From Dermatophagoides farinae (lineage: Eukaryota > Arthropoda > Arachnida > Sarcoptiformes > Pyroglyphidae), in contig NC_134680.1 in assembly GCF_024713945.1 (NCBI RefSeq), positions 2,380,001-2,444,000 of the forward strand: a stretch of 64,000 bases of DNA, given 5' to 3'. Position 1 is the first letter of the stretch. Every line of letters begins with the position of its first letter. A program made the position numbers and the translations under genes. Shown here piece after piece: positions 57,982-64,000 of the stretch. The notes under the pieces were generated by a model. It was not told where the DNA came from. It worked only from the letters and a program-made list of their open reading frames with translations, and ran no database searches.

Positions 57982-59450
57982 TCAATTATAATTGGCTGCC
58001 CATGGAGCAACAGTGGCTAAAATGTAGATCACTACAAACAACAGGAATATTAGTGGAAAAAGTATTCTAGATGTGTGATCAATCTTGTTTCTAACATATG
58101 GGTTACGTTGTAAATCGGCTTCACCGACGAAAAAATAAATCATTCGATCTACAAAACGGCCGGCTCGAGCATACCAGCCATTATTTCCACAATAATAACC
58201 GAGCAATACGGGAGGAGGTGGTGGTCCGATGGTGGCCACACCTTGTGCCTGAGCAGCTAGATATTCTTGTAGCTTTTTTCGGTGATTCTTTTTATCCATA
58301 ATGAAATGTGCCCACGCAATGGCAACAGCATATTCGACCATGACTAAATAAACAAAACCTTGTATCCACATCATCCACCAATGAAATGCTGTCACATAGT
58401 TAACTTGAATATCATTATTATCATCAATATCTTCACTAATCAGATCCATCAATGGAACGAGCATAACTGTGACACGTGCAGGCCAACCATTCAATTGACA
58501 CCAAAATCCAATAAAACTTATTATAACCGTAAGGAATGTAAGAAGATAATATCGAATAATGTAATAATTGAGATTTCGTACAAGTTTCATCGTAGCAACA
58601 ATACACGTATTCTGCCGTATTGGATTCTGCCATGGTCGACATATTTCATATTGGTACCATAAACGAATTTTAAATTCTGGATATTCATCTTTATGTATGT
58701 CGAATAATTTCCATGTGAGCATCAATTGTTCATGGTTATAAAGAACTGTAAAAAGATGACAAAAAATTTCAACAATATCTGTGGCTGTCATTATTAATGA
58801 TACTTACGCGATGAAAATCGAATGTGACAATGTTGATAATCCATTGGATATAGTTGTAGATTTAATGAACATTTAACCTGTGTAAGTACTCGTATGGCAA
58901 AATACATTAATCCCTGTGAATTGATGATCAATTTTTGTGCCGGTATAAATGAATCAACAACACGTGCACGTAGAGCATTTATAATATACGTATCCGGTAG
59001 CCAAAACATTCGAATTTTGTCCGATTCAGATATTGTCACTTGACCTTCTATTAGATCAAGATTTATTCTTGTATCATACCATTCCTGTACAATGATTAGA
59101 TCCATTTCCAGATGTTGATTAGCATTGTCAACATTTTTCAATAAATTCATATATAATGATAATGATATATTTGTTGTTGCTGTTTGTGCCCAATGGGATG
59201 GAATGTTATTAGTTTTTTTAATTTTTGAAAAAAATTAATTAGTTTTTCTTCTTTACTTACTATTTTGACCATATGGGTTCAATGGTCGTACATTTGGATT
59301 ATAATCATCTGGTATCAATGATGCTAGATCAAAATCCAGGCTTGTATCATAACATTCGACATTGTTTACAGTGATGAAAACGGTAATGATTACTATGGCC
59401 GTCGACAATAATAGTGACCAATTTGACAGTGTCATCATCATCATCATCAT
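57982..59450 (-). CDS. Cys-loop ligand-gated chloride channel subunit (copy A)
   Basis: Three exons, 59261-59450, 58808-59179 and 57982-58745 (phase 1 both), 441 residues. The start is a run of six ATG codons followed by a signal peptide. The extracellular domain has MFWLPDTYIINAL (WxPD loop) and the Cys-loop C-x13-C (LYPMDYQHC). Four membrane helices follow in the last 230 residues. M1 leads to NGWPARVTV, the P-A-R filter motif of anion-selective channels; M3 ends in VEYAVAIAWAHF; the M3-M4 loop is short (about 75 residues) with a proline run; M4 ends APWAANYN. It resembles the invertebrate pH-gated chloride channel (pHCl/Hodor) branch, but that placement is inference. Unusual residues line M2 (Pro at 7', Asp at 10'). 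Convergent with the transporter gene, 82 bp between stops. Confidence 0.87.
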
Positions 59451-59599
59451 CAAAAACAATAACCCGATTTCGATGACAAACACTAACGATGTGTTGAACT
59501 GGAAACCTCGAAATTCAATCAAAACGTATTTATTTTATTTTTCAGACAAATAAAATTAAATTCAAAAATTAAAAAAAAAATAATTGTTAAAAATTCTGT

Positions 59600-61144
59600 C
59601 TAGTCATAATTGCCAGCCCATGGTGCGGCCGTTGCCAATGAATAAACCATACAAAACATAAAAAATAATAATGAAAACAAAACTCTAGCCAAATAATCAA
59701 TCTTATTTCGTACATATGGATCACGTTGAAAATCAACTTCACCATAGAAATAGAATAAAAATAGATCGAAAAAGTCGCCACATTTTTTATACCAATTATC
59801 ATTACCGAAATAATAACCATCATAATATGGTTTCAATGGATTCGTTATCGTTGATATATTACCGGCGGCAATCTGATCCTGTTGTTCTTTCCATTTTTTA
59901 TGATGATTCTTTTTATCTGCAATAAAATGTGCCCATGCCAGTGCCAGCGCATATTCAGCTATGACGGCCCAAATAATACCCTGAATCCACATCATCCACC
60001 AATGGAATGATGTTACATAATTACATTGTATTTCATTATTAACCGATATATCTTGTGTGATTAGATTCAATAACGGTATGACTGTAAGAGCAATTCTTGC
60101 AGGCCACATATTAACCGGAATCCAAAAACTAATAAAACTAACGATAACGGCAAGAAAATCGAGTAAATAATAACGTATTACATAGTAACTAAGATGACGA
60201 ACTAATTTTATCGTCACAACTATACATGGATTTTCCGGTATCGGATAATTATATGAAGCACATGAATCCCAAGTATACCATTCACGTACACGAAAATGTG
60301 GATATTCATCCTGATAGATATTTAAATGATTAATCCATATGAATATTTCACTTGTATTGTGTAATACTGAAACGAAACACACAAAGATGATATGAATAAT
60401 AAGAATTCGAAACATAAAAAATTGGAATACACAAAAGACTTACTAGTGGAAAAACGGATATCACAATAATTATGATCATGTGGATATTTTTCTAAATTGA
60501 TTGAACATTGTAGCTGTGCATCTAATCGTCGTACATAATGCATCATACCACGTTCAGTGATGGTTAATTTTTGAATCGGATTTACCGCCTGAATAACCGA
60601 TATTGATTGTGCATTCACAATGAACAGATCGGGTAGCCAGAATTTTTGTATGAGTGATTCTTCATTGATGCTAACCTGAAGATCAATTTGATCAGAAAGT
60701 ATACGTGGATCATACCATTCAAGTATGAGTGTAAGATCAAGTTCATAGTTTTGATGTACATCACCGACATCTTTTAATTCATTGACAAATATCGATATCG
60801 ATACATTGGTAATCGCTAATAATAAATCATAAATATGAATGCATTTACAATCAGTCATACATACATCCATCATCATTAAAATTATGGTACTCACTATCAG
60901 CAGTATATGGATTCAATGGTCGTTTTTGACGATCATAATCAATTGGTAAAATTGAATCAATATATTGTTCTATTGATGGTCCACGAATATAAATTGGTGG
61001 TACGAATGGTACTGTTACCGCTTGTAATTTATTGTCATCATCATCTTTATTGTCGGCTTTGATGATTATGATGGATGAAAATATAAACAAAAATATATGA
61101 CATAACCGCCACCACCAACACATTGTCATCATCATCATCATCAT
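59600..61144 (-). CDS. Cys-loop ligand-gated chloride channel subunit (copy B)
   Basis: Three exons, 60895-61144, 60444-60815 and 59600-60366, 462 residues. Intron phases match copy A, and exon 2 is exactly the same length as in A (372 bp). Six ATG codons open the frame, then a signal peptide and an acidic stretch. KFWLPDLFIVNAQ, Cys-loop C-x13-C (EKYPHDHNYC), WPARIALTV (P-A-R), HWWMMWIQG at the start of M3 and the C-terminal APWAGNYD mark it as the closest paralogue of copy A, 149 bp away. Pro at 7' of M2 is shared with A. A Tyr-rich DGYYFGNDNWYKKC segment in the M3-M4 loop recurs in copies C and D. Ligand unknown; anion selectivity is inferred from P-A-R. Confidence 0.87.
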
Positions 61145-61354
61145 CGGTATTTGTGTACTAATAGAAAGATCAAAATGAATTTTGAATTTGTTGAAATTTT
61201 ATTTTCGTTTCTCGAATATGAATATTAAATTAAAATATATAAATTTTTTTTTTCATCTCATTTCATATGGAATTATTATTGTTATTAAATGTAGTTCAAA
61301 TGATGATGGCATATATTCACAGTAAAGAGGACAAACCATTCCTGCCATGGCCAT

Positions 61355-62866
61355 TCAATGCATACGATATTTCCATGCCCATGGTGGAAAACTAGCCACA
61401 ACATAAAGGCAGCTATAAAAGAAAAATGCAGCCGGAAATGCAACACGTGAAAAATAATCCACTTTATTACGATTAACTGGATCGGCAAAAAAATCTATTG
61501 GGCCGTATATAAAATGTAAACATTTTGTTACGGCTGCACCAGATTTTTTGAACCAATTATTTTTGCCAAAATAATAGCCATCCGGACTTGTCTGCAATCG
61601 GATAAAAAAAAGAAATGAATGAATGAAAAAAAAATAAATTTAAAATTCATTAATATGAAATTCGTACATACATAATTATTCTTTCGGGCATGATGTTTAT
61701 CGACGATCAAGTGTGCCCAACCAAATATCAATGCATATTCCATTTCGGATACATATATAAAAAATTGACAACCCCATTGCCACCAGAATAGTGATGTTAC
61801 ATGTCTTGATGTTGTCTCACCATATGCGGTAATACTAACACTTTTCAGTGTCATTTCAACAACACCGGTAAGTATAGCACGACCAGGTGCACATACAGTT
61901 GGTGTCCACATTTGTATAAAAACCATGAATACTAACAATGCAGTGGGTGTATAATAACGCATTATATAATAACCAACATGTCGAACCAATTGAACACGAG
62001 CGAATGCACATGAATGTTGTGTTAAATTATAGCCAAGATTCGGATTGAATGGATCCATTAATCTTGGTCTGCAAATATCGGTTATTTGTTCACGAACTCG
62101 AAATTGTTCATTACCATCGGGCATTCGAAATTTTGTTATGTTCAACGTTATATTATCATTCCATATTGCAACTTGATGAAAAAAAAATTTCAAAACAAAA
62201 TTTAAATTCCAATTCCAAAAAAAAAATGTTCACTTACGACTTTCAATTTCGAAATAACAATGTTGTTCATCAAACGGTAGATTTGATGTAATAAAATGAC
62301 ACATAAACATAGTCGATAATCGTTGACAGAATTTTACACGATGATTTTCCGGATAAATACTTGCATATTGTATATCACGAAGACTATTGACCACTTCTGA
62401 CGAAACACCATTACGGAAATAAACTTTCGGTATCCATAATCGTTCATAATCAGTAATCTGAACTTTTTTATATATTTTTCGTGGCTCGCTATAATTCACT
62501 GGTGGTGGTGCAAGCTCTTCCGGTAACGATAACAATCGATAATCATACCATTTTAAACAAAGATATAGATCCGTATCTAGATGCTGTAAAAAAATGATCC
62601 AATAAAAACAAATACATCTATACACAAATAGCTAAATAAAAAAAAATTAATTAATTTACCAATTCATCATCTGTTCCATGGAAAATATTGATATAAAGTG
62701 TAACATTCACTTGTATAGAATGTCGAACATCATCTTTAATGGGCATCATATCACGATTATAATCTGGTGGTAAAATGTAATCCAGAAGCCAATTCTGTGC
62801 CCTTACAACTGGAACAATCAACAGACATAATGTTGTTATTATCAACATTGGAATAGAGAAATTCAT
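61355..62866 (-). CDS. Cys-loop receptor subunit with altered pore motif (copy C)
   Basis: Four exons, 62660-62866, 62238-62583, 61672-62171 and 61355-61591, 429 residues. Signal peptide MNFSIPMLIITTLCLLIVPV, then NWLLDYILPPDYNRDMMP. The WxPD loop reads RLWIPKVYFRNG, so the Asp is replaced by Lys. Cys-loop C-x13-C (NLPFDEQHC) is intact. The filter motif is CAPGRAIL (P-G-R rather than P-A-R), and M2 carries Glu at 8' and Lys at 12', which is odd for a pore. An extra intron lies just before the SPDGYYFGKNNWFKKSG segment in the M3-M4 loop. M4 ends FPPWAWKYRMH. It may be a chloride channel, a changed-selectivity channel or an accessory subunit; the sequence cannot decide. Confidence 0.83.
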
Positions 62867-63024
62867 TTTTAGTTTTCAGTCTATCGAACACACGTTTGAA
62901 TTGATTTTGAACATTGTTGAATATTTATTTATTTCAAATAAAGTTTTTTTTACAAGTCATTAACAAATGAAAAATATAGGACAAATATCAACAACAAAAA
63001 CAAGAGAGAAAATGATAAAAAAAT

Positions 63025-64000
63025 TCAATATTTGGCCACCCATGCCGGAATAGTAGCAACAATATAGATTAATGTAAAAAATAGTAATGTAGCCGGAAAT
63101 ACAACTCTGGCTAAATAATCGACCTTATTTCTATTCACTTCATCTTCATGAAACGGTAAATTACCATAAATCATCCGTAAGAAATTGGTCAATACTTGAC
63201 CACATCTTCGATAAAAACCACCTTTACCGAAATAATAACCATCTGGACTTTCAATACCTCTTGCACGTGCATTCTTTTTGTCTGCAATATAATAAAACCA
63301 ACCATAAGCTAATGCAAATTCCACTAGACACATATAGACAAAAAATTGACAACCCCACATCCACCAATATAATGATGCAACATCTTTACAAGGAACCTCA
63401 TTATAACATTCACGGCTAAGACCGATTATGTTGACTAAACAAATGACAGTCAATACCATACGACCATTTGCTGAATAAGCTGCAACCGGATACCAGAATT
63501 CAACGAAAGCAATACAGACCAATAAGAAACTAAGCAGATAATATCGGATAATATAATAATTTACATGGCGAACAATTCTAAGGCCAGCATAAATGCAGCT
63601 ATCATCATTCCAACGATGCTCTAGATTATGATAGATTCGATCGAAACGATTCAGTGGTTCTTTTTCCGGATTACAATCGCCCAATAAACTTTCACGTACA
63701 ACGAATTGATTATTATGACCAGGTGATTTAAGATGTTCATGCATTTGTAACCGAACATAGGGAATCGATGTACCAACTGTGATGAATAAACAATGAAAAT
63801 ATATTAAATTAAATGTCAAAATCATATTTAAAAATCATTATTACACTTACGTGTTTGTAGCTTAAAATAACAATAATGTTCATCGAATGGAAAATTCGAC
63901 AAAATAAATCGACAAATGAATGATATGTCGATACGTGAACACCAATTAAATATTTTATCATGTGAATAAACTTCAACAACTTGAAAACTATTAACAATTT
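63025..64000 (-). CDS. Cys-loop receptor subunit, partial, N-G-R pore motif (copy D)
   Basis: C-terminal part of a fourth array member, running off the window. Visible exons are 63025-63776 (last) and 63851 to beyond 64000, with a phase-1 intron at the same place as in copies A-C. The Cys-loop is C-x13-C (NFPFDEHYC). M1 leads to YSANGRMVL, so the selectivity-filter position has N-G-R, without the proline typical of anion channels. The M3-M4 loop carries the SPDGYYFGKGGFYRRCG segment shared with copies B and C; M4 ends IPAWVAKY. Missing here are the signal peptide, loops A-E and the WxPD region. Closest in wording to copy C. Confidence 0.83.

Follow-up and report, generated by a model that had tools for sequence, protein, structure and literature searches.

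The stretch of Dermatophagoides farinae DNA analyzed here (64,000 nucleotides; "the window") ends within an 8.1-kb, head-to-tail array of five minus-strand Cys-loop channel genes, A to E (Table 1). All five gene models have GT-AG introns and open frames. The first-pass annotation counted at least four genes and held that the array runs past the window; both statements stand, and the full count is five, with gene E lying wholly outside. Its estimate of about 150 to 210 bp between each stop and the next start agrees with the measured gaps of 149 to 210 bp. Inspection of the next 10 kb upstream, which it had proposed, revealed one more copy (E), and nothing further was seen. No sixth copy was present among the best candidates of an LBD family search of contig C4 from E to 4.04 Mb, no channel gene was recognized among ORFs of at least 90 aa at 2446 to 2464 kb (Pfam on four ORFs), and querying the whole genome with D, B, and E gave no additional array copy.

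Table 1. Genes and spacers of the array (window positions unless a contig is named)
Feature	Position	Strand	Length	Exons or signals	Paired extra cysteines (residues)
Gene A	57982-59450	-	441 aa	3 exons: 59261-59450, 58808-59179, 57982-58745	
Spacer B-A	59451-59599		149 bp, stop-to-ATG	AATAAA-type hexamer 60 bp past B stop	
Gene B	59600-61144	-	462 aa	3 exons: 60895-61144, 60444-60815, 59600-60366	
Spacer C-B	61145-61354		210 bp, stop-to-ATG	AATAAA-type hexamer 151 bp past C stop	
Gene C	61355-62866	-	429 aa	4 exons: 62660-62866, 62238-62583, 61672-62171, 61355-61591	78 and 155
Spacer D-C	62867-63024		158 bp, stop-to-ATG	AATAAA-type hexamer 91 bp past D stop	
Gene D	63025-64461	-	432 aa	3 exons: 64246-64461, 63851-64181, 63025-63776; 5' 461 bp outside window (window part, 63025-64000)	81 and 153
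Spacer E-D			197 bp, stop-to-ATG		
Gene E	C4:2444659-2446074	-	430 aa	Entirely outside window	75 and 154

The predicted products of A to E have the features of Cys-loop (pentameric ligand-gated) channel subunits, i.e., an LBD, a C-x13-C loop, and four membrane helices. Their Pfam LBD E-values (A, 1.4e-29; B, 5.4e-23; C, 1.8e-15; D, 1.2e-15; E, 1.5e-12) indicate that the family match is not due to chance; among the five, the Pfam membrane-domain model was matched by B only (E 0.001). The C-x13-C loop is intact in all five, as the annotation had it. Its four membrane helices were likewise recovered: a hydropathy scan (19-residue window; cut, 1.1) flagged M1, M3, and M4 in every gene and M2 in four, the M2 of E falling under the cut yet aligning with the others. 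The scan additionally flags one extracellular stretch each in A and B. A second cysteine pair, in loop C, is invariant in 5/5 array genes and in a sister gene described below (L012); this pair, whose disulfide is predicted from sequence, is the mark of the two-Cys-loop group (as in GluCl, HisCl, pHCl, and the glycine receptor). The YYFG segment reported for B to D was found in those three genes, with YYCG in A and HYFG in E. The M3-M4 loops, described earlier as unusually short, proved ordinary for this genome and were dropped as a special trait: they measure 58 to 77 residues in the array (58 in D), 56 in L012, and 74, 54, 46, 43, 88, 54, and 135 in the seven other genes that yielded a count, the last counts coming from rough models in which introns make them unreliable.

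Phylogenetic trees grouped A to E in one clade with support of 100/99, 100/97, and 100/97 in three trees, and the same clade appeared in separate trees of the extracellular (88/81) and membrane (99/98) parts. Acetylcholine-receptor-type loci were represented in the first tree only (4 of about 9), and the third tree was built without the long-branched L028, L038, L020, and L013; apart from A to E, L012, and three PDB stretches, every row is an automatically spliced model, and some of these are partial (e.g., L034, which lacks loop D). The alternative that the copies were drawn from different ancient classes, named in advance as the outcome that would refute an expansion, was rejected by this clustering, and the proposed lineage expansion held up. 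Within the array there are two subgroups, A+B and C+D+E, and the intron pattern agrees. The dispersed gene L012, 0.5 Mb away, is sister to the array in the three trees (97/93, 99/97, and 100/99) and again when the extracellular part (95/99) and the membrane part (96/94) are analyzed separately; AU tests rejected its placement with AB alone (p 0.008) or with CDE alone (p 0.008). Genome queries with D, B, and E returned the five array genes and L012 first (E 4.9e-19, 6.9e-18, and 2.7e-20 for L012, respectively) and then reached weaker matches to other receptors (best, 3.3e-7, 1.4e-11, and 2.6e-6). An intron at position 135 (phase 1) is shared by 5/5 array genes and L012, one at 33 (phase 0) by C, D, E, and L012, and one at 11 (phase 1) by A and B. 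Equivalent positions also occur in the RDL, LCCH3, and HisCl models, which indicates that the introns are old and that the array copies are not retrogenes. NG86 dN/dS ratios were 0.31 to 0.40 (AB, CD, CE, and DE) and 0.49 (AC), at dS values of 1.4 to 1.8 that are close to saturation. A profile of the array gave 74 pattern matches in prokaryote genome contigs, of which none was confirmed. Adjacent copies forming one clade point to a lineage that expanded in place.

Gene expansions laid out like this array are of a known type; what is unusual here is the rebuilt signal-binding site. Its pocket columns were mapped by alignment and by what we take to be the glycine-receptor numbering. In GluCl, Arg 56, Ser 121, and Thr 198 bind the gamma-carboxyl of the agonist (PMC4178172). 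The aligned residues in A to E are V, I, C, C, and C at 56; A, V, C, C, and C at 121; and I, I, L, W, and F at 198, so that none of the five genes keeps the loop D Arg, the loop E Ser, or the loop C Thr; the Thr place is less certain than the other two because loop C varies in length. Cysteine stands at both the loop D and the loop E places in C, D, and E (3/3) vs none of the 22 other rows (one gapped). The mite HisCl carries S and M at the Arg and Ser places. These pocket residues argue against amino-acid agonists and say nothing more on gating. As the paired places share a carboxylate contact, their cysteines are presumed to lie near each other in space. The pocket of C, D, and E might therefore have become a thiol site for redox or metal sensing, with an extra disulfide acting as a redox switch or locking the pocket, or with a cysteine metal site to which the next subunit would add its lengthened loop C; we consider this elaboration rather unlikely.

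We favor, with a probability of roughly 0.6, the reading that A to E are tandem-expanded orphan subunits that are probably chloride conducting and are opened by a nonclassical stimulus rather than by glutamate, GABA, or glycine. A single divergent two-Cys-loop, anion-type channel gene would have expanded in tandem at the DNA level, and its five full-length products should form homo- or heteropentamers. A, B, and E, in which PAR is present, would conduct chloride; for C and D, a partner may be required. Glutamate, GABA, and glycine would be expected not to open these channels, since the carboxylate residues Arg, Ser, and Thr are replaced in 5/5; the stimulus could instead be pH, a metal, or redox state, or opening could be constitutive. 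The mode of working may resemble that of fly secCl and pHCl-2 of secretory epithelia, with no family membership implied. In one report, secCl is open without ligand and did not respond to ten transmitters and related drugs tried, and pHCl-2 is proton gated (PMC6522505).

In AU tests of the deep placement, joining the array and L012 with HisCl (p 0.36), the GABA group (0.16), L015/L020/L037 (0.134), the glycine receptor (0.099), or GluCl (0.089) was not rejected; without L012, the array was rejected as a partner of HisCl (p 0.006) and of L015/L020/L037 (p 0.012). One tree put L028 with the array and L012, at a support that is not firm (74/87). The best PDB matches were glycine receptors for B and C and a GABA-A beta-2 chain for D, and array stretches are 22 to 32% identical to glycine receptor alpha-2. 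The array has sequence kinship and two Cys-loops in common with the glycine receptor and GluCl, whereas its agonist carboxylate residues are replaced.

The first-pass annotation had set the genes near the pHCl/Hodor group (Hodor being a name for CG11340), a position that these results do not bear out. We regard it as unlikely that the array forms a mite branch within pHCl/Insect group 1 (secCl, pHCl-2/Hodor, and SsCl), i.e., among acid- or metal-gated chloride channels of epithelium in the gut or the excretory system. The divergence of the array, its two Cys-loops, and its lack of an amino-acid site would fit such an origin, and no canonical pHCl was recognized, by reading, among the other anion-type models of the genome; L034, a guess for that role, was rejected on its best PDB matches, which are GABA-A alpha subunits. 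Insect group 1 (secCl/CG7589, CG6927, and pHCl-2/CG11340; Tribolium CLGC1-3) likewise comprises divergent anion-type subunits that are tandem in some insects, with three genes within 10 kb in Tribolium (PMC2064938) and two in an ant (PMC4938653). Unlike that group, as compared by description, the array shows an altered PAR in C and D, and C, D, and E carry a loop D/E cysteine pair. The PDB pHCl chain 21wy does not come out as a near relative: it scored 89.5 bits vs 142.2 for glycine receptor alpha-2 with part of L012 as query and was absent from the best 60 of 146 (D), 216 (B), and 118 (C) PDB matches; the grouping with L015/L020/L037 was neither shown nor rejected. Sarcoptes SsCl (pH gated and ivermectin activated) is, like the array, a divergent mite chloride channel. 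The peptides DFYMSGHL and VDLWFP, encoded by its published primers (103 codons apart, in frame) scored 47 at L020 (101 apart), 35 at L015 (102 apart), and 36 at array gene D, there at a noncorresponding place (Cys-loop to end of M1), a comparison that carries little weight because it covers only 14 residues. The DNA pattern of these peptides gave nine matches genome-wide at two mismatches vs three for a control. A literature search for pHCl-A found no paper.

It appears quite unlikely that A to E are a divergent set of amine-gated channels, histamine-like or other, that would parallel the "divergent histamine" clusters of ticks. HisCl likewise lacks the Arg and Ser of the carboxylate site and is nevertheless amine gated, so loss of that site is compatible with an amine transmitter, and the AU test did not reject the array with L012 and HisCl. 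The Ixodes "divergent histamine 3" cluster is, like the array, a tandem, long-branched, orphan Cys-loop expansion in an arachnid; it numbers 14 copies, of which eight form a tandem next to conserved HisCl genes (PMC9219234). The array numbers five, and the HisCl pair of the mite (L035 and L036) lies on another contig, C3, and does not adjoin the array (the likeness is drawn by description). A to E also lack most of the tabulated HisCl loop B and C residues. A HisCl query of the PDB at E 1e-75 gave no match.

The pore region raises the further reading, which we consider improbable, that the subunits are nonconducting or modulatory partners or decaying copies. PAR ahead of M2 is kept in A, B, and E, is PGR in C, and is lost in D with a two-residue insertion, leaving anion selectivity unsure for C and D. 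The M2 9' residues are M, L, M, V, and Y, the 6' threonine is missing in 4/5, and gene A has a proline at 7' and, close to the outer end of the M2 helix, acidic residues that are odd for an anion pore; the Pfam membrane model, as noted, was matched by B only. Against decay, the open GT-AG models and the dN/dS of 0.31 to 0.49 at high divergence argue for selection on protein sequence, and the pre-M1 arginine, Cys-loop, and M4 residues are retained. An assembly artefact or a neighborhood of unrelated ancient receptors, for which we found no supporting point, is scarcely credible, as A is 28 to 49% identical to the other members (A-B, 49 to 50%), too divergent for duplicated reads, and the clade is single.

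Certain pore positions that we take to be tied to picrotoxin-like drugs are altered in the array, as is, by alignment alone, an M3 position tied to avermectins. These alterations suggest that known acaricide classes may not act on the array channels, and the annotated promise of acaricide targets is doubtful for those classes. A published inventory of Psoroptes ovis gives 16 cysLGICs, all of which share 63% identity or more with a cysLGIC from another species (PMC12364353). A hand count of the D. farinae genome gives about 31 cysLGIC loci including the array, which suggests that similarity-based inventories may miss divergent subunits; the two genomes may also simply differ. To our knowledge, the arthropod Cys-loop channels known as nontransmitter receptors are few and come mostly from flies. 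A compact set of five genes in which the amino-acid site has been dismantled and a cysteine pair recurs would offer a direct test of pocket re-use.

The genome searched comprised 62.4 Mb in 22 contigs, with the window at C4:2380001-2444000, and its channel genes were modeled by a spliced-alignment script. Five tandem Cys-loop channel genes (A to E) run on the minus strand from 57982 to a would-be window position of 66074; thus, the array extends past the window, as the first-pass annotation had proposed on the basis of four genes. In the gene models, all introns are GT-AG and all frames are open. The spacers measure 149, 210, 158, and 197 bp, matching the earlier estimate of about 150 to 210 bp, and all four contain an AATAAA-type hexamer 34 to 151 bp past the stop codon, which in AT-rich DNA may hint at five separate transcripts. 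Beyond these five, no channel gene was recognized in the flanks adjoining the array on either side, and Pfam searches of six neighboring ORFs gave one BTB domain above the cutoff and one Sugar_tr just under it.

Channel genes discussed in the text (A to D, window positions; others, contig positions). Residues are those aligned with GluCl Arg 56 (loop D), Ser 121 (loop E), and Thr 198 (loop C), which hold the agonist carboxylate; the pore 9' residue; and the M3 residue at the glycine-receptor alanine 288 column.
Gene	Location	Arg	Ser	Thr	9'	M3	Description
A	57982-59450	V	A	I	M	M	array
B	59600-61144	I	V	I	L	M	array
C	61355-62866	C	C	L	M	W	array
D	63025-64461	C	C	W	V	W	array
E	C4:2444659-2446074	C	C	F	Y	W	array
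L012	C4:1942127-1943592	H	A	F			minus strand; 431 aa, two Cys-loops, PAR kept
L015	C4 about 4.043 Mb						divergent anion-type, open
L020	C6 about 4.015 Mb						best fit to SsCl primer peptides
L026	C5 3.087 Mb						low-scoring acetylcholine-receptor-like, rough model
L027	C8 4.347 Mb						low-scoring acetylcholine-receptor-like, rough model
L035	C3 about 5.31 Mb						HisCl
L036	C3 about 5.29 Mb						HisCl

The array is a set of Cys-loop subunits, sharing two Cys-loops with the GluCl/HisCl/pHCl/glycine group. By hand count, the genome holds 17 anion-type loci outside the array, including the dispersed gene L012, and about nine of acetylcholine-receptor type. In a 29-row tree, A to E form one clade (100/99), divided into A+B (100/98) and C+D+E (100/99), with L012 as sister (97/93). 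The array clade and its union with L012 recurred in a second alignment without acetylcholine receptors (100/97 and 99/97) and after removal of four long branches (100/97 and 100/99), so the single lineage proposed earlier holds at 100/97 or better in three trees. Separate extracellular and membrane trees also recovered the array (88/81 and 99/98), A+B (98/97 and 90/79), C+D+E (99/94 and 98/95), and array+L012 (95/99 and 96/94); the C+D pairing was weak in the membrane tree (46/4). AU tests rejected placement of L012 within either half (p 0.008 for both).

An intron at 135 (phase 1), in glycine-receptor numbering along the stretch used, is shared by all five genes and L012. An additional intron lies at 33 (phase 0) in C, D, E, and L012 and at 11 (phase 1) in A and B; C has one extra intron in M3-M4. 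L012 shares both introns of D and E, and it is possibly a survivor of the pre-array gene. Corresponding introns recur in the LCCH3 (L033), RDL (L014), and HisCl (L036) models (at 10 for the first), from which we infer that the array grew by DNA-level copying of a gene whose introns were already old and that the two halves lost different introns. The array is not recent, given the 28 to 49% identity of A to other members and pairwise dS of 1.4 to 1.8. Unlike this old array, the nearly identical L035 and L036, about 23 kb apart, are a recent duplication.

AU tests rejected none of the unions of array+L012 with older classes, with p values of 0.36 (HisCl), 0.16 (GABA group), 0.13 (L015/L020/L037, other loci of this genome), 0.099 (glycine receptor), and 0.089 (GluCl); a further locus, L028, joined array+L012 in one tree, not firmly (74/87). 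The first-pass annotation had placed the array near the pHCl/Hodor group. PMC4569296 and PMC5708620 describe the scabies-mite channel SsCl as alkaline gated and ivermectin activated, and its qPCR primers are printed in PMC2890653. Both primers can be read through in register in two frames, of which the one with LGIC-like words gives DFYMSGHL, then VDLWFP 103 codons on. Among this genome's models, scored at spacings of 90 to 117, L020 fitted best (47, spacing 101; 14 residues compared in all). Array D scored 36, but spanning the Cys-loop to the M1 end, and L015 scored 35 (spacing 102). The aspartate before the M3 tryptophan is absent from all five array genes. The peptide fit, on only 14 residues, leans away from the array, and L020 is a candidate for SsCl-type pH-gated function.

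Elsewhere in the genome, L015 lacks a standard C-x13-C Cys-loop, its first cysteine being displaced and its second position having no aligned cysteine. There are three RDL-type GABA receptor genes (L014/L040, L023, and L031/L032); one RDL-type model finds its best solved-structure match in 9she (entered as GABA receptor subunit beta; Drosophila RDL). That match and five hits to the Group 7 allergen family are consistent with a mite genome. L026 and L027 may be divergent genes or incomplete ones. Ticks (PMC9219234), Tribolium (PMC2064938), and an ant (PMC4938653) are known to carry tandem expansions of divergent subunits; no earlier report of this array appeared among the papers listed by searches of an open-licence library, from which most subscription papers are absent.

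The carboxylate-site residues are replaced throughout the array. Cysteine occupies both the arginine and serine columns in C, D, and E, and in none of the 21 and 22 other rows, respectively (rows with a letter there, for arginine). These columns should be near each other in space; because arginine and serine contact one carboxylate in relatives, the cysteine pair is expected to be close together and might form a disulfide or a metal site. Loop C has 20, 25, and 26 residues between its two cysteines in C, D, and E, each of which carries one or two histidines there, compared with 11 residues in A and B. A counterargument is that HisCl likewise lacks the arginine and serine.

At the pore, A, B, and E retain PAR; C reads PGR instead, and D has lost the motif and gained a two-residue insertion. 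Of the five, only E retains the 6' threonine. The 6' and 9' positions are linked to picrotoxin-like drugs. The M3 column is that of glycine-receptor alanine 288. Glycine there is associated with ivermectin binding (PMC4569296). Given the altered 6', 9', and M3 positions, picrotoxin-like drugs and the ivermectin class are predicted to have weak or no action on the array channels. According to PMC6522505, secCl is open without ligand and pHCl-2 is proton gated; the array channels may work like either without necessarily belonging to their family.
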